Source: an uncultured Acholeplasmatales bacterium (GTDB lineage Bacteria; Bacillota_I; Bacilli_A; Acholeplasmatales; Anaeroplasmataceae). Taken from it: a stretch of DNA of 64,000 nt. Every line of letters begins with the position of its first letter. The stretch's first letter is position 1. The stretch covers positions 1-64,000 of the forward strand of contig CALUXS010000002.1 in the NCBI GenBank assembly GCA_944324805.1, written 5' to 3'. The notes below the pieces were generated by a model. It did not search any database. It was not told the DNA's origin and was given only the letters and a program-made list of their open reading frames with translations. Position numbers and translations under genes: made by a program. This document shows, in pieces, positions 5,037 through 23,164 of the stretch.

Positions 5037-5432
5037 GCCCGGGGCCATCAGCATATAAAAGATACAATTTTAAAAAATATGAGTGGATGTGATTTAGTAC
5101 TTTGTATAGTTGGTAAAGAAACATTTTCTAGACCACATGTAGATTGGGAATTACATGAGGCATTAAAAGGTGGAATTAAAAGTAGAAAGGGCATAATTGC
5201 AGTTTTGTTAGAAAATAGATTAGATAGTAAAAAATTTATTAATTCAGAGACATTTCCAGTAAGATTAAACGATAATTTAGATTATATAGTTATTGAACAA
5301 TTCTCATCTCTAAATGAAAGAATACAATATGCATGTGAAAAGGCAAAAGAGAATAGTAAAGATAAAATGATACAGGTTATCAATAATAAAAAACCAATGG
5401 AGCTAAGAAAAAAACTATACTTTGACAACTAA
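5037..5432 (+). pseudogene. C-terminal fragment of a TIR-like (MTH538/ThsB-type, PF08937-like) protein
   Basis: The readable frame has the second half of a TIR-like domain: a helix (HIKDTILKN), a strand with DLVLCIVGKETFSRPHVDWEL, then KGIIAVLL and a DNLDYIVIEQ segment. This is the signature of the TIR-like family used as sensor/NADase-type proteins in Thoeris and related defence systems. The first half (the KIFISYKY strand and the following region) is missing. The first ATG in frame is at 5079, inside the domain, and homology continues upstream of it to about 5043 without a start codon. It is therefore best read as a truncated remnant. Confidence 0.6.
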
Positions 5433-5608: not shown

Positions 5609-5802
5609 ATGGCTGGACACAAAATTTTTATATCATATAAATATGCTGATAATAGTGTTAGAACATTAAATCAAAGAAGAACTATTGTTAGAGATTACGT
5701 TAATGTAAGGATAAGTTAGATAATTTGTATTTTAAGGGAGAACCATGTTATTATGATTTATTAAATTATAGTGATGAGACCATAGAGTAGAAAATTATCT
5801 AA
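5609..5802 (+). pseudogene. N-terminal fragment of a TIR-like (ThsB-type) protein with frameshift
   Basis: A well-formed start (ATG at 5609 behind GGGGGAA) opens with MAGHKIFISYKYADNSV, the first strand and loop of ThsB/MTH538 TIR-like domains, and continues to TIVRDYVN. The frame then hits TAG at 5717-5719. Homology resumes in another frame from about 5710 (DKLDNLYFKGEP through NYSDETIE) before TAG at 5788 and TAA at 5800. The conserved C-terminal half never appears. The frameshift and stops show a decayed gene. It lies downstream of, not upstream of, the C-terminal fragment, so at least two TIR-like genes or one rearranged gene decayed here. Confidence 0.6.
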
Positions 5803-5927
5803 ATTGAGAAAAATAATAATTTAAAGATATTTATACTAGTTTTTTGTATTTATTGTATAAATAATAAAATTCCGTAAATATTAAATAAAATTTAAAAGCC
5901 ATAATAAACATTTTTTGGAGAAAGTAT

Positions 5928-8636
5928 ATGAATGAATTTTTAGCAAGTCAAATAGTTAAGCAAAACAATCAAATTGAAAAGTATTTTGATAATTTTGGTA
6001 TTGAAAAAAATGATTATGAATTAAATTGTGTTGCAATAATTAAACTGTTGCGAACATTAATTGAGCATATTGTTGCGTATGATTATGGAATGACAAATAC
6101 AATAGAATATAGGATTGATAAAGAAAGCTTGCGGACTTTAGTAAGCTTTATGAAGAAGACAGGATTATCGTTTTTGTCAAATGTTCATAGATTTTTACAA
6201 GCGGCAGCATCTCATTATGTAATTGATGAAGTATCTGCTCCAAGGTTATTAAATAAATATATTCCGTATTTACTTGATACTAAAAAGTGGCTATATGACA
6301 AGTATCAAATTGTAATACTAAAAAATATTGAAAAATTCTTTTTTATTCAATTGAATGGGATGGAGGAATACTATAAACAAATAGAAAATAAATTAAAATC
6401 ATATCAACAAAATGAATTTAAAGATAACAAGGAAAGATATTATGTATATAAGTCTATTCCAAGGTTTATAGATAATAACTTGTTTTATGAAACAACTTTA
6501 GGAATTGCTAGTAATTATGCCAGTAAATTTAATCGTTTTATTGTATTTTCAAATTTTAAAATCGATGATCGATATGCAATAAAAATAAATGTTGAGAATG
6601 ATTTCATTATAATTAACAATACAGTTATTCCTATTAAAGTAGTTACATCATATAAGAAATCAATTAGACCATGTGAATTTAATAATTTTGCAAAATTATT
6701 AGATGCTGTAGTAGATGTTAAATCACATTTTTTAGAATATAAACTACTAATGGATTATATGACTATAAACGATATTGGTCTTTACGATATTGTTATATCT
6801 GACCAATCCAAATTTGAAGAAATAAAAAAATTTGTTTTGTCAAAAAGTGAAAAAGCTGTAATATGGCCAATATTAGTTAAAACTAGAGATACAATTAATC
6901 AAAATTATTATGGTTCAAATGTTCTTAAATACTTGCTCGCTAATATGAATAATGTAATTATAAAAGATCAATATAGTTCTGAATCAAATAAACATGGATT
7001 ATATATAAAAGCACAACCATTTGATAATTATCCTATTGCTATGAATTTAATAGGGCATAAGACGTCTCTTTTAACACTAATGGAAATTTTTGATTTGACT
7101 GATAAAAATGATGAATTATTTTATAGGAAACTCAATATTAAAACTAATTCTGAGGGAAAATTATATCATTGTATTGATGAATTAGAATTAGAAGAAAAGA
7201 TGGCTGACTCATATATGAATTCTATTAATTCAAAGTTATCTTGGAGTTATGATATGCATGTGAAGAAAATTGGTAAGTCTTATTATATAAATCAGTATGA
7301 GAGAACATCAAAATATATATGTGATAAATTGATTTATTTATCAAAAGAAGGAATAAAAGATTATTCTACTTTTATAGATAATATCTTTACTTCTACTAAT
7401 TACAAAGTTGATTCTGTAGAAAAAAAATTAATTGTGAGAAAACTATTTGAAAATAGTAGAGTTGCGTGCATATATGGTCCTGCTGGAACCGGTAAAAGTA
7501 CATTGGCAAAACATATTTCTAATATGATGAATAATGTATCAAAGATATATATATCTAATACTCATCCTGCAGTGATGAATATGTATAGAAAAATTGGTGG
7601 AGAAAAATCATGTTTCATGACTATAAATAAATATTTAAAGGATAAACCAGAATCCGATTTGTTATTTATTGATGAATGCAGTATGGTTAGTAATAATCAT
7701 ATGAATGCTATATTAAAACACAATTTATTCAAGTATTTAGTGCTATTAGGAGATGTATTACAAATTAAGTCTATAGACTATGGTCCGTGGTTTAAAATAA
7801 ACAAATCATTATTGCCTAAACATTGTAAATTCGAATTGACAGAACTCCATAGAACTACAATGCCAGAATTAAAGTCATTTTGGGAAATTGTTAGAAATAA
7901 AGAAAATGTTATTGATGAAGTTTTATCCGATAATAGTTATGTTAAAGAACTAAATGATTTAACACTATTTGAATATGAAGAAAACCAAATAATCTTATGT
8001 TTAAATTATGATGGATTATATGGAGTAAATAATCTTAACTCAGTTTTACAAAAGAAAAACAATTCTAAAGAGTTCATGATAGGAGCATATTCATATAGAA
8101 TAAACGATCCAGTTTTATTTACTGAAAATAACAAATTTTCAAACATCCTATACAATAACCTAAAAGGGAAAATAATTGATATTTATTTTAATGATGAGTA
8201 TGCAATAATTTCTTTAAATGTTGAAACTAGTATTAATAAAATTATTGCTTCTAAAATTGATGGATTAGAGATTATTAAAATAAATGAAAATAATACAACT
8301 GATATTTCGATAAGAGTTAAATGCCAATTTGATAGTGATGTAGATGAAACAAAATCAGAACTCGTACCGTTTCAAATTGCTTATGCTGTAACCGTTCATA
8401 AGGCTCAAGGATTAGAATACAATACTGTAAAAATTGTTATTGGTGAAAATTCTGACGAACTAGTTACACATGATATATTTTATACCGCAATAACACGAGC
8501 AACAAAAAAACTTGAAATATATTGGACATTTAAAACACAATCTAAAGTCTTGGAGAATATTACAAGAAAAACTGAAAACAGAGATATTGCAATATTTGCT
8601 AATAAATTTGGTTACAAAATACGAGAAAAATACTAA
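5928..8636 (+). CDS. Large SF1 (RecD/Pif1-like) helicase with unrecognised N-terminal half
   Basis: The 902-residue protein has a C-terminal superfamily 1 helicase core. Walker A is GPAGTGKS at about residues 517-524 and Walker B is LLFIDECS near 582. Next come motif III LLGDVLQIKS, TELHRT, and the UvrD_C-like end with VTVHKAQGLEY (~820) and YTAITRATKKLEIYW (~852). The N-terminal ~500 residues are helical and rich in Asn, Lys and Tyr, and I recognise no domain there. The start is ATG 5928 after TTTTTGGAG. It lacks the usual RecD2 N-terminal HhH region, so it is not a housekeeping RecD2. Its place directly after TIR-like remnants and before other conflict genes argues for a role in defence or mobile-element biology. 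Confidence 0.75.
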   Translation: MNEFLASQIVKQNNQIEKYFDNFGIEKNDYELNCVAIIKLLRTLIEHIVAYDYGMTNTIEYRIDKESLRTLVSFMKKTGLSFLSNVHRFLQAAASHYVIDEVSAPRLLNKYIPYLLDTKKWLYDKYQIVILKNIEKFFFIQLNGMEEYYKQIENKLKSYQQNEFKDNKERYYVYKSIPRFIDNNLFYETTLGIASNYASKFNRFIVFSNFKIDDRYAIKINVENDFIIINNTVIPIKVVTSYKKSIRPCEFNNFAKLLDAVVDVKSHFLEYKLLMDYMTINDIGLYDIVISDQSKFEEIKKFVLSKSEKAVIWPILVKTRDTINQNYYGSNVLKYLLANMNNVIIKDQYSSESNKHGLYIKAQPFDNYPIAMNLIGHKTSLLTLMEIFDLTDKNDELFYRKLNIKTNSEGKLYHCIDELELEEKMADSYMNSINSKLSWSYDMHVKKIGKSYYINQYERTSKYICDKLIYLSKEGIKDYSTFIDNIFTSTNYKVDSVEKKLIVRKLFENSRVACIYGPAGTGKSTLAKHISNMMNNVSKIYISNTHPAVMNMYRKIGGEKSCFMTINKYLKDKPESDLLFIDECSMVSNNHMNAILKHNLFKYLVLLGDVLQIKSIDYGPWFKINKSLLPKHCKFELTELHRTTMPELKSFWEIVRNKENVIDEVLSDNSYVKELNDLTLFEYEENQIILCLNYDGLYGVNNLNSVLQKKNNSKEFMIGAYSYRINDPVLFTENNKFSNILYNNLKGKIIDIYFNDEYAIISLNVETSINKIIASKIDGLEIIKINENNTTDISIRVKCQFDSDVDETKSELVPFQIAYAVTVHKAQGLEYNTVKIVIGENSDELVTHDIFYTAITRATKKLEIYWTFKTQSKVLENITRKTENRDIAIFANKFGYKIREKY

Positions 8637-8872: not shown

Positions 8873-9721
8873 GTGTATAAAGAAAAACTAAAGCATTATT
8901 TGTTTAGATTTAAATTATGGTGTTCTAACTTAAGAAAAAACTGGATATTGTATATTCTAAATTTAATTTTGTATTTATTTCCAGTTGTTGTAATAGAACC
9001 TAGTATTTTCGAATGTATTGTTGGCAAATTCACATATGTGATAGCACTAGTAGTGGTAATTTTTATTGTTAATGAGTTTATCAAATCTAAAGAATTGATG
9101 AAAAATGAGTATGAATTGAATTCAACTAGAGAAAGCATTAAAAATTTGGAAAAGGAACTTTATGAATTGGAATGTTATTCTGAAAGTATAGGCTTATTTC
9201 TTGAAAATTTACCAAAAGATTTTTTGAGAAGTGTATCAGAATTTCTTAAGCTAAGGAATAGTGAAAGAATTTCCTTATATGTGCTAGTAGATGATAAAAA
9301 ATTTCGTATTATTGGTAGATATAGTGAAAATCCTAAGTATGACAGGAATGGTAGGTGTGAATACCCATCTGATTGTGGATATATATCAAAATGTTTAGAA
9401 AATGATAATGGAAAATCATACTACTATATAGATAAATTACCCCAAAAATTAAATCAATATTTGCAACGTGTTTCCAAGGATACTGGTATGAGCGAAGACG
9501 AAATAAAAAATCTTTCTATGAAAAGTAGAACATATTTTACGAGATTAATCAAAGATAGAAATAATAAAAATGTAGGAGTTTTAGTTGTAGAAAGCACCAA
9601 AGCGATGTTACCTATGAGTGTGGGCGAACTAAATACAAAATTGGAAGAATTAATCATTTCGCATTTGTCTACATTTTTAGACATAAGTAATAAATTGAAG
9701 GGAGTGTATTCTAATGGATAA
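8873..9721 (+). CDS. Two-pass membrane protein with C-terminal GAF-like domain (possible Panacea-linked toxin or sensor)
   Basis: A GTG start follows CGAGGGG. Two membrane spans (about residues 24-44 and 50-71) are followed by a coiled coil (about 72-105) and a GAF-like sensor domain (about 105-275). Recognisable GAF strands include ERISLYVLVDDKKFRIIGRYSENP and the closing NKNVGVLVVEST. The gene overlaps the start of the Panacea-domain gene by 8 bases, so the pair is co-translated. Panacea (SocA-like, DUF4065) domains act as antitoxins to many unrelated toxins, several of them membrane proteins, which makes this a candidate toxin or a membrane signal sensor. The domain layout is clear; the role is inferred. 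Confidence 0.6.
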   Translation: MYKEKLKHYLFRFKLWCSNLRKNWILYILNLILYLFPVVVIEPSIFECIVGKFTYVIALVVVIFIVNEFIKSKELMKNEYELNSTRESIKNLEKELYELECYSESIGLFLENLPKDFLRSVSEFLKLRNSERISLYVLVDDKKFRIIGRYSENPKYDRNGRCEYPSDCGYISKCLENDNGKSYYYIDKLPQKLNQYLQRVSKDTGMSEDEIKNLSMKSRTYFTRLIKDRNNKNVGVLVVESTKAMLPMSVGELNTKLEELIISHLSTFLDISNKLKGVYSNG

Positions 9722-10175
9722 TAAACTAAGAAGTATCATAAGATACATTGTTAAAAACTATCCTTATCCTGATGATTTAACAAAAACGCGAATAACCAAG
9801 TTAGTTTATTTGATTGATTGGGAAAATGTAAAAAAATATGGATGTCAAATGACGAATATCGCATGGTATTTTAATCATTATGGTCCATATGTGGCAGATG
9901 TATTAGATACAGCATATGAAGATAAAAGTGTTTGTGTAAAAAGTACTATGTCAAATTTTGGTACAGTAAAATACATTGTAAAACCAAAAGCAAGTAAAAA
10001 TGAATTAATGTATGATGATTTAACGTCTAATGACAAAAATATTATTGAAAAAGTTGTAGGCAAAACAAAAAATTTTTATTGGAATGAATTTATAAATTAT
10101 GTTTATTCAACAGAACCAATAAAAAAAAGCACTAAATACAGTGCTTTAAATTTAAAAAAAATCAAAAGAAAATAA
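9714..10175 (+). CDS. Panacea (SocA-like/DUF4065) domain protein, putative antitoxin
   Basis: The 153-residue protein has the Panacea signature: an N-terminal helix then LTKTRITKLVYLIDWE, followed by W-Y-F-NHYGPYVADV, and a C-terminal helical segment. The family includes the SocA proteolytic adaptor and the PanA antitoxin domain, which neutralises very diverse toxins encoded in the same operon. Here the partner is the overlapping membrane-GAF gene. The start ATG at 9714 sits inside the end of that gene, with a good AAGGGAG site just upstream. The order is toxin-candidate first, antitoxin second. The family call is good; the antitoxin role is inferred from context. Confidence 0.75.
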   Translation: MDNKLRSIIRYIVKNYPYPDDLTKTRITKLVYLIDWENVKKYGCQMTNIAWYFNHYGPYVADVLDTAYEDKSVCVKSTMSNFGTVKYIVKPKASKNELMYDDLTSNDKNIIEKVVGKTKNFYWNEFINYVYSTEPIKKSTKYSALNLKKIKRK

Positions 10176-10528: not shown

Positions 10529-11491
10529 ATGGATTCAAGCAAATTAAAGATAGTAAGAAACTCAATATGTTATCATTCGGGGCAGAATTTTCAAAATAAG
10601 ATAGGTATTATTTTGAAAGAATACTATACTTTTAGTGGATATTCATATGAAAATCCTAGTTCTGCAGGTGGAGATGATAAAAACGATGGTTGGGTAAAAG
10701 AACTTGGTATATTTTATCAAGTTTTTTCTCCTACAAATTATAATTCATCTTTTGGCAAAAATGTTTTTGGAAAATTTAAAGAGGATGCTACAGGATTATT
10801 TGAAAATGTATATGTACATGGATTATGGAAAACTCCTATAAATGAATTTGTTTTTGTGGTGAATACTAGGGATCAAGAATTACCTAAAGACAGTGAGTTG
10901 TTTTGTGATAAAGTTATTGAAGAATTGAATAAAAAGTATGGAAGTAGTGCTAAATACAAACTTGTTAATTTTGATTATATTGCTGATTTATTATTTGATT
11001 TAGATTCCTCAACAGAAGATAGGCTAATGGTTAAGTTAGATATAGATGATATGATAAATTACGATAATATTACTGAGAAAACAATTATATCATTTTTAGA
11101 CTCTATGGCAGCTAGTATCAAAGAAGATATGTTAGGTGATTGCAGTGGGAGTAACTATACAAGAATTTCTTCAGCAAATAAGATAGAAAGAAATAATTTA
11201 GTAGAAATAGGCGAGAAGATTAATAAGTTAATTTGTAAATTGCATATTGTTGAAAATGCTATCTCTACTTCTAATAGAGTAGATCCTACAAATAATAATG
11301 TTACTACAGTTACTGATTTTGTTATTTCAAAGTATAATATTTTGTCGGCTGAAAAAAAAGGTGTTGAATTATTTGATTCTATTGTTTATGAGATGACTGA
11401 ACTTACTCCGGGACTGCAACTATTTGCTTTGCCAGCAGAATTATTTGTCGTTTATATCTTTGATAAATGCGATATTTTTGAGAAGGAGTGA
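10529..11491 (+). CDS. ABC-3C system effector-type protein with REase-like N-terminus
   Basis: This is the first gene of a three-gene ABC-3C (ABC three-component) operon. The N-terminal ~95 residues hold SSAGGDDKNDGWVKELGIFYQVFSP, the acidic-then-Q(V/I)(Y/F)xP pattern seen at the start of many ABC-3C proteins, reminiscent of a restriction-endonuclease-like fold. The C-terminal ~200 residues are the helical domain typical of these proteins, with ELTPGLQLFALPAELFVVYIFDKC near the end. In this family the protein is thought to be the effector or adaptor controlled by the SMC/RecF-like ATPase. It ends with TGA six bases before the ATG of the middle-component gene. No canonical PD-(D/E)xK lysine is obvious, so nuclease activity is uncertain. 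Confidence 0.75.
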   Translation: MDSSKLKIVRNSICYHSGQNFQNKIGIILKEYYTFSGYSYENPSSAGGDDKNDGWVKELGIFYQVFSPTNYNSSFGKNVFGKFKEDATGLFENVYVHGLWKTPINEFVFVVNTRDQELPKDSELFCDKVIEELNKKYGSSAKYKLVNFDYIADLLFDLDSSTEDRLMVKLDIDDMINYDNITEKTIISFLDSMAASIKEDMLGDCSGSNYTRISSANKIERNNLVEIGEKINKLICKLHIVENAISTSNRVDPTNNNVTTVTDFVISKYNILSAEKKGVELFDSIVYEMTELTPGLQLFALPAELFVVYIFDKCDIFEKE

Positions 11492-11496
11492 ATAAA

Positions 11497-11742
11497 ATGA
11501 TATTACCTAATAAATATTTGGAGTTGGAAGACTCATTTATATATCAAGCAACAATTATTTTGAAGATACTGGGGAAAAAAGAATATACTTTTGATGTTCT
11601 ATGGAATAAATATTTAAGTAAACAACAAGATAAACAAATATCATATATATATTATATATATTTGATTGAATTTATGTATGTATCTGGGATGATTAACTAT
11701 AAAGAAAATGGGGTAATTTATAATGAAAATCTTAAAGGTTAA
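11497..11742 (+). CDS. ABC-3C middle component (MC6-type)
   Basis: The 81-residue protein has the pattern of ABC-3C middle components: MILPNKYLELEDSFIYQATIILKIL, a winged-helix-like centre (YTFDVLWNKYL), and a final YLIEFMYVSGMINYKENGVIY in which a small hydrophobic helix is followed by a beta hairpin. These small proteins link effector and ATPase. A GTG at 11488 is in frame, but AAGGAG at 11483-11488 fits the ATG at 11497. Its 3' end overlaps the ATPase gene by 20 bases, which implies translational coupling and fixed stoichiometry. Confidence 0.8.
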   Translation: MILPNKYLELEDSFIYQATIILKILGKKEYTFDVLWNKYLSKQQDKQISYIYYIYLIEFMYVSGMINYKENGVIYNENLKG

Positions 11743-13378
11743 TTTATTTGATAAAGTTGGCAATTTGATACGAGAAATTGATATATCAAAAAATGGAATG
11801 TTCATAGTATATGGAAATGTGAAAGAACCAAAAGACAAGAAGAAGACTATTAATAGTATTGGAAAAACCTTATTTTTAAGGATGTGCAATTACATACTAG
11901 GAAGTAAAGTTGATTCTGAATTGGCCAAGTCTGACATTGCTGAGTATTATATTATATCTAATATTCTTGATGATGAAGATAAAAAACATGTAGTTAAAAG
12001 ATTATTAAACCAAAAAACAATTGAAGTTGATGGTGTGGAAATGTCTTTGGATACCTTTACACAAACATATAGAGTTAATAGGAAGTTAATATCTAGACAA
12101 GTCAGGCTTTACCCCAAAGGGAGTCTTTTAGGGTATAATAAAACAGAAACCCAAGAGGATTATGTGGATTTTTTAAACATTTTAGGTTTGAATACATTAA
12201 GTTCCAAAACAAATTCATACTATGAATTAAGAAAAGAAATTGATGGTTTAGGTAAGACAAAATCTGAACTTGTTAAGATTTTGGGAATATCAGATGATAA
12301 AGTTTCACAGGAAATTTTCTTAAATGAAAAAAATTTGGAAAAAACAGAAAAATTAATAAACGAAAATTCAGACAAAATAAGATGTTTAAGACTTGCAAGA
12401 AACTCAATTGAACTTCAAAATAATTATTCTACAGCAAATGCTGAACTCAAAAATGTTCAATACAACATTACCAAATCGTATTCTGAAAAGAAAAATTTAA
12501 AATTGTTCATTGATAATAGTAAAGACAAAAATCCTTCAATTTCTAGTGTTGTTAAAGTTTATAACTCTGTTAATATTGAAATACCAGAAATGGTGGTTCG
12601 AAAATTGGATGAAGTTCATGATTTTTATAAAAATGTAATTGAAGATCGTATTTTAAATATAAACAAAAAGATTTATGAATTAGATTGTACTATCAATAAT
12701 TTATGTGATAAACGAGAGTTATTGAAGAAAAAAATGGAAGAAATTGGCATACAACTTTCAAATAACGACTTGTATCAATCTGCAATAAATATGATTCAGA
12801 ATTTAAATAAGGAATATTCTGATTATAAATATAAGCAGGGGCAATTAGCTCAAATCAAAAGTGTTTGTTCACAAATAAAAACAAAAGAAGAGGAAAAAGC
12901 TCTATTATTTTCTAAAGTATCCGAAGAAACTAAAAAATGCGAAGAATATATTAAAACATTAAAAGAATTTGTCTTTAAAATTGTTAAAGATATTTATAAT
13001 AATGATGTTACTGCTTTTTTTGATATCTATAGCGGTTTATATAGAAAAAATGCAATTCCGATTCATATTGATTTGACAATTTCTGGTGAGACAGGTGAAG
13101 GAATACTAGAAGTTAAGAAAAATATAATGGATTTATTAATGTTTAACTTCAATGAGGAATCAAATATTTTGATTCTTGATTCATCATGTTTTAATGGTAT
13201 TGATCCAAGACAGGTATCTGGATTATTGAATGTTATTAATACGATTTGTGCTAAGAAGAATAAGCAAGCTATAATCTCTGTTAATAAATATCAAGTTGTT
13301 AATGATTATGTTAAAGATAAAATGAATTATATTTTAGAATTGTCAGAGGATGATAAGTTGTTAAAAATGTCATATTAA
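11723..13378 (+). CDS. ABC-3C ATPase, DUF2326/SMC-RecF-like
   Basis: The 551-residue ATPase has a P-loop in the N-terminal 55 residues (INSIGKTLFLRMCNYILG), a central coiled coil (roughly residues 190-440) with paired heptad stretches, and a C-terminal head with Walker B NILILDSSCFNGID near residues 475-490, then ISVNKYQV. This is the DUF2326 architecture of ABC-3C and SMC-like conflict ATPases. It probably senses or translocates on DNA and licenses the effector encoded two genes upstream. The start overlaps the middle-component gene by 20 bases. The operon appears intact: all three frames are open and the ATP-site residues are present. Confidence 0.85.
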   Translation: MKILKVNLFDKVGNLIREIDISKNGMFIVYGNVKEPKDKKKTINSIGKTLFLRMCNYILGSKVDSELAKSDIAEYYIISNILDDEDKKHVVKRLLNQKTIEVDGVEMSLDTFTQTYRVNRKLISRQVRLYPKGSLLGYNKTETQEDYVDFLNILGLNTLSSKTNSYYELRKEIDGLGKTKSELVKILGISDDKVSQEIFLNEKNLEKTEKLINENSDKIRCLRLARNSIELQNNYSTANAELKNVQYNITKSYSEKKNLKLFIDNSKDKNPSISSVVKVYNSVNIEIPEMVVRKLDEVHDFYKNVIEDRILNINKKIYELDCTINNLCDKRELLKKKMEEIGIQLSNNDLYQSAINMIQNLNKEYSDYKYKQGQLAQIKSVCSQIKTKEEEKALLFSKVSEETKKCEEYIKTLKEFVFKIVKDIYNNDVTAFFDIYSGLYRKNAIPIHIDLTISGETGEGILEVKKNIMDLLMFNFNEESNILILDSSCFNGIDPRQVSGLLNVINTICAKKNKQAIISVNKYQVVNDYVKDKMNYILELSEDDKLLKMSY

Positions 13379-13894: not shown

Positions 13895-13917
13895 GTTAAT
13901 TGTTTGGAGTGGTAGTT

Positions 13918-16704
13918 ATGTTGCAAGGTAAGTTTTTAACTAATTATACTAAGTGTAAATTTATTGATGAAGTCAAAGATTCTCTTGAAAATTGTATTTC
14001 ATTTTCTTTTTCAGTAAGCTTTATAAAGAAAGCTGGTCTTGTTCTTATTGAGCATGATATAGAAAAAGCTTTAGAAAGAGGTGTAACTGGAAAAATAATT
14101 ACATCAACATATCAAAATTTTACGGATATAATATCGCTTGAAAAATTTCTGTATTGGATTAATAAATTTCCAAATTTTAAATGTCATTTAGATCTAGAAT
14201 GCTTTGATGACAATGGTTTTCATTCAAAAGGCTATCTTTTTGAGTATCCTAATGAATACAAATTTTTAGTTGGTTCAACTAATATTACTAGATTTGCTTT
14301 ACTTAAAAACATTGAATGGAATGTTTCATTATTTGCAAAAGATAAAATAGACTTGTTTAATAATGTTGAAACTGCATTTAATTTATTATGGGATAAGACT
14401 TTAGAATTAGACGAAAAGTTAATAAAAAAATATTTACTAATGTTAGATTATGCCATTGAAAAATGGGATATGGACTATATTGACACATCTATTGATGTAA
14501 ATATTAGACCTAATTTAATGCAAAGAAAGGCTTTAAAAGAACTTAGACGTTATCGTGATATGGGAGTAAAAAGAAGTCTCATTGTGGCTTCGACCGGAAG
14601 TGGGAAGACATACTTAGCAGCTTTTGATGCCAGAAATTTTAATGCCAAGAGATTACTTTTTGTTGTACATAGAGACACTATTCTAGAGGCTGCTAAGAAA
14701 ACTTTTGAAAATGTTTTTGGAGCTAAGAGAAGCTATGGCATATATACTGGTAATAGCAAAAATCTAGACTGTGATTTTGTATTTGCTACAAACATTATGA
14801 TGTCAAATCATTTTGATGAATTTTTGCCGAATGAATTTGACTATATAATAATTGATGAATGTCATCATAGCGTTGCTTCATCATACAAAAAAATTATTAA
14901 TTATTTCAAACCGGATTTTTTACTTGGTTTAACTGCAACTCCTGAAAGAATGGATAATGATGATGTTTTTGAAATGTTTGATGCTAATGTTCCATTTGAA
15001 TTAAGATTAAGAGATGCAATTATTAATGATTTAGTTGTACCATTTCATTATTACGGCATAAGAGATAGCTATGTAGATTATTCATTTGATGATAAGACTA
15101 AGATTGCAAAAGAAATTGCAAAATCAGAGAATATTAATTTTATTATTGAGCAAATTGAAAATTATCATCCAAATGGTAAACTTAAGTGTATTGCATTTTG
15201 TTCAAGTATTTCACATGCTAGGACTATGGCAGAAGCCTTTAATAATTTTGGTTATTGCTCTGTTTCATTAGTAGGATAGAATGATTTAGGTGAACGTTTA
15301 AAAGCCTTTAATAACATTCAAGATGATTCTCATCCTTTAGAAATAATATGCACGGTTGATATATTAAATGAAGGTGTAGATATTCCTATGATAAATATGG
15401 TTTTATTCTTACGACCAACGGAATCATCAACTATTTTTCTTCAACAGCTAGGTAGAGGACTTCGTAAATGTGAGGGTAAAGAATTTTTAACAGTCTTAGA
15501 TTTTATCGGAAATAATTATGATAGGTCTGTCCAAATAGCTTTTGCTCTAGGAACTTTGGGTAATTCTACCGGCATTGAAAAAGCATACATTAGAGATATG
15601 ATTCGAACAGATTTTAAATCTCTTAACATTCCAGGCGTAATTATTAACATTGATAAACTATCAAAAGAAGAGATACTTCTAAATTTGGATAAAACAAATT
15701 TTAATTTAAAAAGATATTTAATTAGTGATTATAACAACTTTAAAAAATATCTTAAAATGAATACTTATCCATCACATATAGACTATTTGGAATCAGATTT
15801 AGCACCAGATTTAATAAGATTCATGAAATCAAAAATTAATGGTAAGAAAAATATGAGCTATTATAAATTTTTATCCAAAATTGGAGAAGAAAATTTGCCA
15901 TTATTTAATGATGATGAGATAAATCTTATTGATAAGATTTCAGATTTATTACCATTAACTCGTGTTGATGAATTTATAATTATAATGCAGATATTAGAAA
16001 ATGAAATTAATATTGAGACACTCATTGGTTATAATAGTAGAGTAACTGCAAGCACATTAAACAATGCTTTATATTATTTAAATCGTGATAAAATTATTTA
16101 TAATGACCAACTTAATGTGCATTTTGTTTCTGAAGACTTAAAAAAATATCTTTTAGATTTAATTAATTTTGGATTATTAAAATATTCAGTTGATTTTGGT
16201 GACTTTAATTCTAAATTCAAGCTATATGGGAATTATTATAAAGAACAAATTATGAAAGAGTTATTAGAAAAGTCAACAATGTTCATGAAGGGTACAAAGT
16301 TTGATACTGAAAATAAAATAACGTATTGTTTTGTTGGTTTAAAGAAGGACAAAAGTAAAGAAGAACGTTTAAACTATAAAGATAAGTTTATTGATAAATA
16401 TACATTTCAATGGGAATCAGAAAATGATACAACATTTTATAATAGTACTGGAAAAAAATTGCAAAACACAAAAGTTGTTCATCTATTTGTTAGAAAAATG
16501 GATGATGAGGATGGTATCACTTTACCATTTACATATTTTGGGACAGGTAGATTTGAAAATATGAGAAATTCATATGTAGAGTCGTTAGAAAGTGATGGTA
16601 GTATTACTAAACATAAAACATTGCTTTTTGACATCATACTAGATAATGAAGTACCTGTTTCATTGCATTTTGATTTTGAAATTCCAGAAACCATAGAAAG
16701 TTAG
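13918..16704 (+). pseudogene. PLD-like nuclease / SF2 helicase / DUF3427 protein interrupted by an in-frame TAG
   Basis: One continuous 928-codon frame is broken only by TAG at 15277-15279 (codon 454). Before it: a phospholipase-D-like nuclease domain (HSK at ~102 and GSTNITRFA) and an SF2 helicase start (STGSGKT ~225-231, DECHH ~313, LTATPERMD). After it, in the same frame: motif V (TVDILNEGVDIP), motif VI (QLGRGLRKCEGKEFLTVLDFIGN) and a C-terminal DUF3427 region. Homology reads straight across the stop (SLVG-stop-NDLGERLKAFNNIQ). The translated first part lacks motifs V and VI and should be inactive as a helicase unless the codon is suppressed. The ATG at 13918 is behind TTGGAGTGG; an in-frame TTG at 13900 is less likely. 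Confidence 0.8.
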
Positions 16705-18385: not shown

Positions 18386-21300
18386 ATGAAAAATATTTGT
18401 TTTATTGATCTTGAGATAAGTTCTACTGAAAAAGTTCAAGATGTTGGTTTAATTGATTACAACAATTTTTCATATCATGAAAAGAGTATAAAAAATATTG
18501 AAAAGATTTTGAAGGATTCTTTTTATATTTGTGGGCACAATATATTTGCCCATGATTCTAAATATATTGAAAGAAAATATTTACCGGATAAATTTTATTT
18601 TATTGATACTTTATTGATTTCTCCGCTTGTCTATCCAAAGAAAAAACATCATAATTTATTAAAAGATGATAAACTTTCTGTAACCGAACTTAATAATCCA
18701 GTCAATGATGCTAAGAAATGTAGAGATTTGTTTTTTTTAGAAGTCGATATGTTTAATAGCTTTGATTCTACATTGCGAAATATTTATTGTACCCTTTTAT
18801 CTAATGTAGAAGAATTTAAGGGTTTTTTTGAATATGTTAATTGTTCCAAAGTGTTTTTTATTAAAAATGCGATTTCCAAAATATTAAAAGATAAGATTTG
18901 TTCAAATGCTGAATTAGATACATTTATTAAAAATAATCCTGTTGAATTAGCTTATGTTATGGCAATAATTTTAAAAGGTGACAAAGATGATAGTATTTCT
19001 CCGTGGGTACAATTTAAATTTCCAATGGTAAATAAGATACTTAAGAAATTAAGGGCTACTAAATGTAAAAATGGCTGTTCCTATTGTAATGAAAAGTTCT
19101 CTGCTAAAAAACGTCTTAAAGAGTTTTTTGGATACGATGATTTTAGAACTTATGATGGAGAGCCTTTGCAAGAAAAGGCGGTTAATGCAGCTATAGAAAA
19201 TAAATCTTTATTGGCAATTTTTCCTACGGGGGGAGGCAAATCAATTACTTTTCAGCTTCCTGCATTGATTGCAGGAGATACCGAAAAAGGTTTGACAATA
19301 GTTATTTCTCCATTGCAATCTTTGATGAAAGACCAAGTTGATGGATTAAAAAATAAAGGAATAATTGATGCAGTTACTATCAATGGATTACTAGATCCAA
19401 TTGAACGTTCTAATGCTATTGAGTTGATTGAAAATGGTATAGCTAGTATATTATATATAGCTCCTGAATCGTTACGCTCTAAAACAATTGAAAGAGTTCT
19501 ATCAAAAAGAAATATTGTTAGAATTGTAATAGATGAAGCGCACTGTTTTTCGACATGGGGACAAGACTTTAGAGTCGATTATATGTATATAGCAACATTT
19601 ATAAAAAGAATTCAAAAAGAAAAAGAATTAGAGCAACCAATACCTGTTTCTTGTTTTACTGCTACTGCTAAACAAAAGGTAATATCAGATATTTTAGATT
19701 ATTTTAATGATAATTTAGGATTAAGGCTAGAAAGATATACTACAAATTCTACTCGAAAAAATCTTCATTATAAAGTAGAACTTAAAAATGATGCCGAGAA
19801 ATATAGTGCTTTGAGAACATTAATTAGTAATAGGAAATGTCCTACTATTATATATGTATCAAGAACTAAACAAACAATAGAACTTGCGCAAAAATTAAAT
19901 AATGATGGTTTCAAGGCACTGCCATTTAATGGTAAGATGGAAAAATCTGAAAAAGTGGAAAATCAGGATAAGTTTCTAAAAAATGAAGTAAATATCATGG
20001 TTGCTACATCCGCATTTGGAATGGGAGTTGATAAACCTGATGTTAAGTTAGTTGTTCATTATGATATTTCAGATTCTATTGAAAATTATATTCAAGAAGC
20101 TGGTAGAGCTGGTCGTGATCAAAGTATAGAAGCAGAATGTATTGTTTATTTTGATGAAAAAGATTTAGATAATCATTTTGCACTATTAACTCAAAGTAAA
20201 TTGAGTCTTAATGATATTAATCAAATATGGAGAGGAATAAAAAACTTAACTAATAAAAGAAAAACAATATGTTGTTCAGCCTTAGAGATTGCAAGAAGTG
20301 CAGGTTGGAATGATGAAATTAATGACTTAGAAACAAGAGTTAGAAGTGCAATTGCAGTTTTAGAATCATCTGGTTATGTGACTAGAGGTTTAAATTCCCC
20401 TCGTGTGTTCGCTACATCAATTGAAGTAAATAACGTCGAAGTAGCTAGAGAAAAAATGCTTAAGTCAAAAATATTTTCAAGTACGGAAATTGATAGGGCA
20501 GCAGTTATTTTAGGTTTTTTAATCTCTAGGAAAAAAACTTTTAAAATATTAGGTAATGAAGCTGAGTCTAGAGTGGATTATATAGCTGATAGAGTTGGTA
20601 TTAACAAAGAAGAAGTTATTGATTTAATTGATAAGATGCGTTCAATAAAAATTTTGTCTGATCAAAATGACTTAGTAGCGTATTTAAAAGAAAACGAAAA
20701 TAAAGCTGCTAAAGATTTATTTAATATATATGCTAAGATGGAAAATGAATTGGTCACTTATATAAAAGAAAATTATTATTATGATCTAGAAAATTTTAAT
20801 TTAGACCTAAAAGATATTAATGAATATATGCAAAACAAAAAAATTAAATCCACTATTAAAAGGTTAAAAGATATAATACAATTTTGGATTCAAAAAAATT
20901 ATTTAAAAAAGGGAATTTTAAGCAACAACATATATATAAATATAGGATTAATAGATAAAAGTTCTATTGAAGAAAGAAAAAACACAAGAAATATGATTTG
21001 TGACTTTTTACTAGATTATTTATATGATTTATCTAATGAAAATGGTATTATTGAATTTTCTTTAACTAATTTATTGACTGAATATAATGAAAGACCAAGC
21101 TTATTTGAAGATTTCAAAAAGGCTAATTTAGATGAGATAAAAGAAGCGCTACTATACATTAAAAACTTGCATATTATCGATATAGAAGGCGGTTTTTTAG
21201 TTTTGTATAATGCTTTACAAATAACACGTGAAATTGAAGGAAATAGAATTCAATATAAAAAAGATGATTACAAGAAATTAGAAAACTATTATAAATTAAA

Positions 21301-23164
21301 AATCCAGCAGATACATATAGTTGGTAAATATGCAAATATGATGGTAAGTGATTATAATCAAGCCTTAGAGTTTGTTTCTGATTATTTTAGTTTAGAATAT
21401 GATGGATTTATAAAAAAATATTTTAAAGGCAATGAAAAAGATGAGATACAGTTAAATATAACTCCAACAAGATACAATAGATTATTTAGCGAATTATCAC
21501 CTATACAAAAGGAAATTATTGATGATAACAAATCAAAATACATAGCAGTTTTAGCAGGCCCTGGTTCAGGTAAGACTAGAGTTTTAGTTCATAAATTGGC
21601 GTCGTTGCTGCTATTAGAGGATGTAAAAAGTGAACAATTATTAATGTTAACATTTTCTAGAGCTGCTGCGACTGAATTTAAAACAAGATTAATTGATTTA
21701 ATAGGTCCATCTGCTTATTATGTTGATATTAAGACTTTTCATTCATTTTGTTTTAATCTATTAGGAAAAAATGGTAATGAAAGCGCATTTGATGATGTTG
21801 TTAAGGATGCTATTAAATTGATATTGAATGACGAAGTTGAACAAGAAATTATTACAAAAACTGTTTTAGTAGTTGATGAAGCACAAGATATGGATGAAGA
21901 CAATTATAATTTGATAAAGTCTTTAATGTCAAAAAATGATTATTTGAGAATTATTATGGTCGGTGATGATGATCAAAACATATATGAATTTAGAAATTCA
22001 AGCTCAAAATATTTAGAAGATTTCTCTAAATTAAAAGATTCTAAAAAATATGATTTGTTGGATAATTATAGAAGCTTTTCCTCAATAATAGCGTTTAATA
22101 ATCACTTTGTTGAACGAATTGATAATCGACTAAAAAGTAGTCCTATAAAATCAATTCAAAAGAAAAATGGTGAGGTAAGACTAATACGGTATTCAAATTC
22201 AAACTTTTTAGTGGGAGTAGTTGAAAACGTAATTAAAAATTTAGACAATAGTGGTGTGACAGCGATTTTAACCCAAACCAATGAAGAGGCTTTATTAGCA
22301 CTTTGTATTCTTAATGAGCAAGGATACCATGCCAAATTGATTCAATCTGCAGAAGGATTTGATTTGTATAATTTGGTTGAAGTTCGTCGAATTTTAAAAA
22401 ACCTTACTAAAAGTCAATCTACTACAATATCAACTGATTCATTTAATTTAGAATTACAAAAATTAAAAGAGGCTAAGTGTAGTGATTACATTTATGAAAT
22501 TATTTCTAATCTTATTAATAATTTCATAAAACAAAATAAGGTTTATTATATAACCGATTTTATTGAGTATATAAAAGAGTCAAATTTTGATGATTTTATT
22601 GATGTTAAGAAAGTAAAAATAGTAGTTTCGACAATACATAAAGCTAAAGGAAAAGAGTTTGAGCAAGTGCATATTTACTTGAAGGATTTATTCCAAGAAT
22701 CTAATGAGACTAATCGAAAATTATATGTTGGATTTAGTAGAGCAAAGGAAAAATTGACTATTCATACAAATTCTAATTACTTTAAACGAGAAATAAGGTA
22801 TTTAGAGTTTGAAAATAATAATAATGTTTTCAAACCATTAAATAAAGTTTTACTCCAATTAACTCATCAAGATGTATTTTTAAATTATTTCATTAAATTT
22901 AAAGAAAAAATTTTTAAAATATCATCAGGTAGTTCTTTAATTTATAAAGATGGAGAATGTTATCTATATGAAAAAGATTATGTTCCAATTATTAAATTTT
23001 CTAAAAAATTCAAAGAAAAACTTGATTCTTTTTTAGATTGTGGATACCATGTGGTAAAAGTTATTGCTAAATATATAGTTGCGTGGAAAGCTAAAGAAAG
23101 TTTAGACGATATAGAATATCCTATTATTTTACCTGAAATATTATTAGAGTATAAAAAAGAGTAA
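18386..23164 (+). CDS. Fusion of DEDD 3'-5' exonuclease, RecQ-type helicase and UvrD-like helicase
   Basis: The 1592-residue protein has three enzymatic modules. Residues 1-120 form a DEDD exonuclease (IDLE at 7-10, GHNIFAHD with D57, NDA..D at ~107-113). A CxxxCxxC cluster (CKNGCSYC, ~230) leads into a RecQ core with TGGGKS at 281-286, DEAH at 383-386, and the RecQ-specific aromatic loop CFSTWGQDFR. Motif VI is QEAGRAGRD near 575. After a helical linker, an SF1A helicase follows: GPGSGKT at 1058-1064, VVDEAQDMD, GDDDQNIYEFR, STIHKAKGKEF and YVGFSRAKEKL. One chain therefore carries two motors of opposite superfamilies and a nuclease. Such fusions occur sporadically in genomic islands and suggest processing of foreign or damaged DNA. 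Confidence 0.85.
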   Translation: MKNICFIDLEISSTEKVQDVGLIDYNNFSYHEKSIKNIEKILKDSFYICGHNIFAHDSKYIERKYLPDKFYFIDTLLISPLVYPKKKHHNLLKDDKLSVTELNNPVNDAKKCRDLFFLEVDMFNSFDSTLRNIYCTLLSNVEEFKGFFEYVNCSKVFFIKNAISKILKDKICSNAELDTFIKNNPVELAYVMAIILKGDKDDSISPWVQFKFPMVNKILKKLRATKCKNGCSYCNEKFSAKKRLKEFFGYDDFRTYDGEPLQEKAVNAAIENKSLLAIFPTGGGKSITFQLPALIAGDTEKGLTIVISPLQSLMKDQVDGLKNKGIIDAVTINGLLDPIERSNAIELIENGIASILYIAPESLRSKTIERVLSKRNIVRIVIDEAHCFSTWGQDFRVDYMYIATFIKRIQKEKELEQPIPVSCFTATAKQKVISDILDYFNDNLGLRLERYTTNSTRKNLHYKVELKNDAEKYSALRTLISNRKCPTIIYVSRTKQTIELAQKLNNDGFKALPFNGKMEKSEKVENQDKFLKNEVNIMVATSAFGMGVDKPDVKLVVHYDISDSIENYIQEAGRAGRDQSIEAECIVYFDEKDLDNHFALLTQSKLSLNDINQIWRGIKNLTNKRKTICCSALEIARSAGWNDEINDLETRVRSAIAVLESSGYVTRGLNSPRVFATSIEVNNVEVAREKMLKSKIFSSTEIDRAAVILGFLISRKKTFKILGNEAESRVDYIADRVGINKEEVIDLIDKMRSIKILSDQNDLVAYLKENENKAAKDLFNIYAKMENELVTYIKENYYYDLENFNLDLKDINEYMQNKKIKSTIKRLKDIIQFWIQKNYLKKGILSNNIYINIGLIDKSSIEERKNTRNMICDFLLDYLYDLSNENGIIEFSLTNLLTEYNERPSLFEDFKKANLDEIKEALLYIKNLHIIDIEGGFLVLYNALQITREIEGNRIQYKKDDYKKLENYYKLKIQQIHIVGKYANMMVSDYNQALEFVSDYFSLEYDGFIKKYFKGNEKDEIQLNITPTRYNRLFSELSPIQKEIIDDNKSKYIAVLAGPGSGKTRVLVHKLASLLLLEDVKSEQLLMLTFSRAAATEFKTRLIDLIGPSAYYVDIKTFHSFCFNLLGKNGNESAFDDVVKDAIKLILNDEVEQEIITKTVLVVDEAQDMDEDNYNLIKSLMSKNDYLRIIMVGDDDQNIYEFRNSSSKYLEDFSKLKDSKKYDLLDNYRSFSSIIAFNNHFVERIDNRLKSSPIKSIQKKNGEVRLIRYSNSNFLVGVVENVIKNLDNSGVTAILTQTNEEALLALCILNEQGYHAKLIQSAEGFDLYNLVEVRRILKNLTKSQSTTISTDSFNLELQKLKEAKCSDYIYEIISNLINNFIKQNKVYYITDFIEYIKESNFDDFIDVKKVKIVVSTIHKAKGKEFEQVHIYLKDLFQESNETNRKLYVGFSRAKEKLTIHTNSNYFKREIRYLEFENNNNVFKPLNKVLLQLTHQDVFLNYFIKFKEKIFKISSGSSLIYKDGECYLYEKDYVPIIKFSKKFKEKLDSFLDCGYHVVKVIAKYIVAWKAKESLDDIEYPIILPEILLEYKKE

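Follow-up and report, generated by a model that had tools for sequence, protein, structure and literature searches.

The intact open reading frame at positions 5928–8636 of the window (the 64,000-nucleotide stretch analysed, from contig CALUXS010000002.1 of an uncultured Acholeplasmatales bacterium) is, as judged from its sequence, a member of a catalogued candidate phage-defence family, PDC-S53, and probably a mobile, stand-alone gene for a helicase directed against phages or other mobile elements (Table 1). PDC-S53 is the best named match in PADLOC (854.7 bits, E = 2e-257), with residues 6–895 aligning to profile positions 5–895 of 900 (890/900 positions), i.e. over the full length. The profile (PDLC05035, PADLOC-DB 2.0.0) defines a single-gene phage-defence candidate, so the family itself was already known and the window gene is a divergent member of it. 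Such PDCs are putative candidates derived from “guilt by embedding”, and are mostly unvalidated (2026 survey, PMC12988326); we found no paper in the literature that names PDC-S53, describes its function or tests any member. What is new here is the proposed anatomy of the protein and a prophage cassette that contains it, both of which rest on prediction and comparative genomics.

Table 1. Features of the PDC-S53 gene and its predicted product, in window coordinates
Feature	Position	Strand	Remark	Basis
PDC-S53 family helicase gene	5928..8636	+	intact, 902 aa, ATG start	23- and 40-sequence alignments
Probable ribosome-binding site, GGAGAAAG	5917..5924	+	3 bases 5' of ATG	sequence
HEPN-like helical bundle (predicted), residues 1-127	5928..6308	+		AF2 model and VIA-align, Z 7.7-9.2
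OB fold (predicted), residues 161-246	6408..6665	+		Z 6.0-6.8, 64-87 residues, rmsd about 3 A
Helical linker domain (predicted), residues 248-347	6669..6968	+	unassigned	AF2 models, block pLDDT about 85-95
RecD2-like region before motor, residues 394-490	7107..7397	+		hhalign; VIA-align
SF1B helicase core (1A, 2A, inserts), residues 494-895	7407..8612	+		Pfam AAA_30, UvrD_C_2; RecD2 3gpl Z 23.6
Walker A YGPAGTGKST, residues 516-525	7473..7502	+		sequence

The first-pass annotation described a 902-residue protein with a complete set of SF1 helicase motifs, and both points are borne out, the motifs being conserved in 40 homologues. In Walker A, A519 and K523 are invariant (40/40); D582 is present in 39/40 homologues and E583 in 40/40, and D609/Q612, R642, H824/Q827 and R857 are each kept in 40/40. 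With respect to the SF1B class (RecD/Pif1/Dda), Walker A/B and motifs III, V and VI are all intact. The Pfam matches (AAA_30, UvrD_C_2 and a weak SH3_13) fall in the motor only, from residue ~500, with no Pfam domain assigned before residue ~494–502, and no nuclease domain is recognisable in the protein. An AlphaFold2 model of the full protein, built from a 23-sequence alignment (mean pLDDT 82.5, pTM 0.79), has RecD2 as its best match in the PDB (3gp8, Z 23.2; 3gpl, Z 23.6; over residues 329/360–900), followed by RecD, TraI, Pif1 and Dda; the RecD2/Pif1/Dda folds match the motor at Z 16.5–23.6.

RecD2 has an N-terminal OB fold, and PDC-S53 resembles RecD2 (TIGR01448, YrrC) both in its SF1B motor, from residue ~394 onwards, and in a similar predicted order of OB fold, helical part and motor. 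By hhalign against 21 RecD2 sequences, residues 394–881 align with RecD2 213–708 at 99.9% probability (E = 8.7e-35), and the VIA-align superimposition on RecD2 3gp8 starts at residue 329 (Z 23.2). That RecD2 is the best solved-structure match, and that the domain order is shared, would fit a chromosomal DNA-repair paralogue of RecD2; we regard this as very unlikely, given that PDC-S53 has a patchy, mobile distribution, that its residues 1–390 are unrelated to RecD2 by profile, and that it misses the RecD2 equivalog cut-off by 400 bits (NCBIfam TIGR01448 versus residues 422–877, 100 bits; cut-off 500) in a genome with a separate RecD2 on another contig. The last two observations also led us to reject RecD2 as the identity of the window protein itself. 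In contrast to RecD2, PDC-S53 has a predicted N-terminal HEPN-like bundle, and its residues 1–390 are without sequence homology to RecD2: hhalign of residues 1–412 and of their sub-regions against the RecD2 N-terminus (OB/HHH region) gave a probability of 0.3% or less. Since RecD2 profile homology begins at residue ~394, the unassigned part of the protein comprises ~390 residues rather than the 500 first proposed, and it is indeed without a Pfam assignment or a solved relative by sequence. The contrary case, in which the N-terminal half would be a known RecD2/Pif1 accessory region and homologues would lie in ordinary chromosomal contexts, holds for residues ~330–490, which are RecD2-like, but not for residues 1–390 or for the contexts, which are not ordinary chromosomal ones.

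For the N-terminal half, a separate AlphaFold2 model of residues 1–412 (pLDDT 80.8) was subjected to fold comparison, which returned a HEPN-like and an OB match by VIA-align but nothing at E < 1e-3 by Foldseek against the PDB and BFVD; the N-terminal profile likewise has no solved relative by sequence. HEPN/DUF86/HepT proteins account for 10 of the 11 best VIA-align rows for the first 127 residues, at Z scores for which the tool urges caution, as helical bundles below Z 13 can reflect a common arrangement, and Pfam HEPN gave no match to the PDC-S53 N-terminus. The OB region, with model strands at 171–244, matches SSBs, the MCM OB and RecO, and is predicted likely to bind ssDNA. Both assignments are fold matches to a predicted model, of moderate strength (Z 6–9). 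Pfam KwaB is detected in 3/23 family members (best E = 2e-4), and was found neither in the window protein nor among the fold matches listed.

The predicted fold of residues 1–127 is like that of the HEPN proteins HepT and YutE/DUF86, but the catalytic RX4-6H motif is absent: it is not conserved in the 40 homologues, with no conserved arginine at −5 to −7, and we rejected HEPN RNase activity on this basis. H96 is replaced by glutamine in 14/40 proteins, including 14 of the 15 prophage-cassette proteins (described below). These observations bear on a sensor-effector toxin, in which the helicase, on meeting phage DNA, would activate a HEPN-like RNase or nucleotide-modifying effector. The closest folds are those of HEPN toxins, HepT and YutE, and homologues outside the cassette often have H96 and Y97, but the absence of RX4-6H, together with the loss of H96 in the cassette proteins despite strong purifying selection, makes such a toxin improbable.

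Homologues of PDC-S53 (about 45) occur sporadically in several phyla, on plasmids, in prophages and in chromosomal islands; a search with the N-terminal profile detects members in 15/392 genomes of the phylum and 11/395 of the class, but none of the other sampled genomes of the genus or family has an intact copy. Relatives with coverage of 80% or more and identity of 31–39% are found on plasmids of Sporosarcina, Lactiplantibacillus, Phocaeicola, Rhodococcus and Arthrobacter, on phages of Erysipelothrix and Terrisporobacter, and on over 20 viral contigs, and elements with serine recombinases also carry copies. Among related prophage copies, almost every pair has a dN/dS value of 0.04–0.10, which, at the sequence level, is strong purifying selection. 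The window copy lies on a long branch of the family tree and has substitutions at residues conserved in nearly all other homologues (R30Y, S34C and E105P), and its activity is therefore not guaranteed. An empty-site comparison with sister genomes found no sufficiently close orthologous flank. Two decayed forms were also observed: in a genome of the same family (G015), a C-terminal 200-residue PDC-S53 remnant adjoins a transposase (L032:1337–1939, G015:C35), and another genome carries four near-identical decayed N-terminal copies (L101; G204:C1, four places), as if a mobile element had spread them.

PDC-S53 genes occur in two settings, either alone beside defence genes, on chromosomes and elements, or in the prophage cassette. 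In the former setting, Gabija adjoins PDC-S53 in Acholeplasma oculi, where GajA is split, and on a viral contig (L058), with PDC-S19 and PDC-M14A; type I R-M genes are neighbours in three loci (L093, L096 and L105); and AbiE and a UG5-nitrilase reverse transcriptase lie beside PDC-S53 in a further locus (L034). The stand-alone chromosomal copies are intact and on the same strand as the adjoining Gabija or type I R-M genes. Of the mobile markers among the matches listed, serine recombinases are the most frequent (7/101 neighbours). In a leave-one-out comparison with 40 arbitrary windows from the same genomes, relatives of the defence proteins of other loci were found at 5/13 PDC-S53 loci versus 2/40 random windows (Fisher p = 0.007), a result that is supportive rather than conclusive because the query set is small and comes from the same loci; the window's own locus had no defence match in this test. 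The stand-alone defence helicase put forward by the first-pass annotation is supported by the full-length PDC-S53 match, the patchy mobile distribution and these defence-island neighbourhoods. As side observations, the L034 locus is a dense island (L034:259–15634) of QatC/QatD-like genes (assigned by eye), the UG5-nitrilase reverse transcriptase, PDC-S53 and AbiEi/AbiEii, and a MazG-like pyrophosphohydrolase and a Schlafen group 3 helicase, possibly a defence pair, recur beside PDC-S53 (L095:10517–12717 and L098).

Around the window gene, decayed TIR-like genes had been noted upstream and conflict modules downstream. Upstream, a ThsB/TIR C-terminal fragment at 5079–5432, 0.5 kb from the helicase gene, matches Pfam ThsB_TIR (24.9 bits, profile 58–98 of 100); a second TIR-like gene rests on an N-terminal start recognised by eye at 5609–5787 (MAGHKIFISYKYADN), which is broken by a frameshift and a stop and has no match in Pfam. 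The decayed fragment would be accommodated if PDC-S53 were the surviving motor of a TIR-linked system, the other role initially suggested. In the neighbourhoods, however, TIR is absent from the listed families (best 25) common to at least 2 of the 101 neighbours at 24 loci, and the only TIR seen among the matches listed is the window's own decayed fragment, beside an intact PDC-S53 gene. The homologue neighbourhoods thus yield a defence association but no recurrent TIR partner; a TIR-linked origin is extremely unlikely, and the fragment most probably lies there by chance, as island debris.

The downstream conflict modules are confirmed, and comprise SocA/Panacea, ABC-three-component and an interrupted type IV restriction enzyme. 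At 8873–10175, an overlapping gene pair encodes an apparently membrane-anchored protein and a SocA/Panacea antitoxin-like protein, possibly a toxin-antitoxin system, and an apparently intact ABC-three-component system follows at 10529–13378 (MC6 middle component, DUF2326 ATPase and a PDC-M68-like protein). The PLD-ResIII type IV restriction enzyme (mREase_IV, 13900–16704) is interrupted by a single in-frame TAG (15277–15279); its frame is otherwise continuous, implying either that the gene was inactivated recently or that the TAG is an error of sequencing. Further along, a 1592-aa protein (18386–23164) combines a RecQ-type with a UvrD-type helicase, and its N-terminus is DEDD exonuclease-like by eye. 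An ArdC-type antirestriction protein at the contig start (91–1098) suggests a mobile element.

In the 40-homologue tree, the prophage-cassette copies form a single clade of 15 rows with one origin (support 100/100). The cassette has three genes, encoding an accessory protein, the helicase and a Cro-type regulator. The accessory protein (277–464 aa) precedes the helicase, usually ~12 bases away (examples at L049, L051, L065, L069 and their relatives), and the Cro/CI-type regulator (HTH_26, 67–81 aa) mostly follows it. The accessory C-terminus is conserved and the N-terminus variable, a pattern of the kind seen in recognition modules. Some accessory N-termini resemble an LmuA-labelled PADLOC profile (E = 1e-13), and Pfam gave no match and no nuclease domain for the accessory protein. 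A HamA-type (DUF1837) nuclease partner was considered and rejected, the PADLOC HamA match to the prophage accessory protein being weak (0.003), again with no Pfam match; most non-prophage loci have no HamA-like partner. The helicase is normally found without an accessory partner, and since the cassette clade is nested among stand-alone copies, the accessory partnership looks derived. Within this single prophage clade, a dedicated accessory protein and a Cro-type repressor are probably the helicase's working partners.

The phage and plasmid copies also invite comparison with Dda. PHROG 325 (“Dda-like helicase”, filed under DNA metabolism) matches residues 83–881 (E = 2.2e-44), and one of the prophage and plasmid copies adjoins a plasmid replication gene, as might be expected if PDC-S53 were a Dda-like accessory replication/recombination helicase of phages and plasmids, present in islands as mobile-element debris. 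T4 Dda (3upu) itself aligns with the motor only (residues 486–865). Against such a role, the prophage cassette has its own Cro-type regulator and lies, in two annotated phages, on the strand opposite the phage replication genes; and the lone copies in chromosomal defence islands are intact and co-oriented with Gabija or type I R-M genes. We consider the Dda-like role unlikely, and a defence role the better supported of the two.

As a defence helicase, PDC-S53 would be expected to load, via its OB fold and motor, on ssDNA that becomes accessible while phage DNA is injected, replicated or recombined. By analogy with the RecD2/Pif1/Dda class, the enzyme would move 5'→3', and its motor may unwind or strip phage replication or recombination intermediates, with replication block or abortive infection as the outcome. 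The HEPN-like bundle would most likely be a platform for oligomerisation, for inhibition or for binding a partner, not an RNase. More tentatively, PDC-S53 might be a nuclease-free, single-protein defence whose HEPN-like/OB platform directs the RecD2-like motor to phage DNA intermediates, and from which one prophage lineage has made a regulated three-gene superinfection-exclusion cassette with a varying accessory N-terminus; this fuller scheme is possible, though doubtful in its entirety.

PDC-S53 may work like Hna, Hachiman HamAB and AbpAB, in which an ATP-driven DNA motor senses aberrant or phage DNA (PMC13381803; PMC12278908; PMC10732053). In Hna, ATPase and nuclease are balanced and phage SSB activates the protein (PMC13381803), and in Hachiman a sensor helicase restrains a nuclease (PMC12278908). 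In contrast to Hna and HamAB, whose nuclease is part of the protein itself or of its partner, PDC-S53 is without a recognisable one.

These results give a bare candidate family a testable anatomy, comprising a HEPN-like bundle, an OB fold and a RecD2-like motor, and suggest that the motor, and not an RNase, must be the source of its activity. How defence helicases work when no nuclease is recognisable is poorly explained, and prophages carry a compact, regulated version of PDC-S53 that is directly testable.
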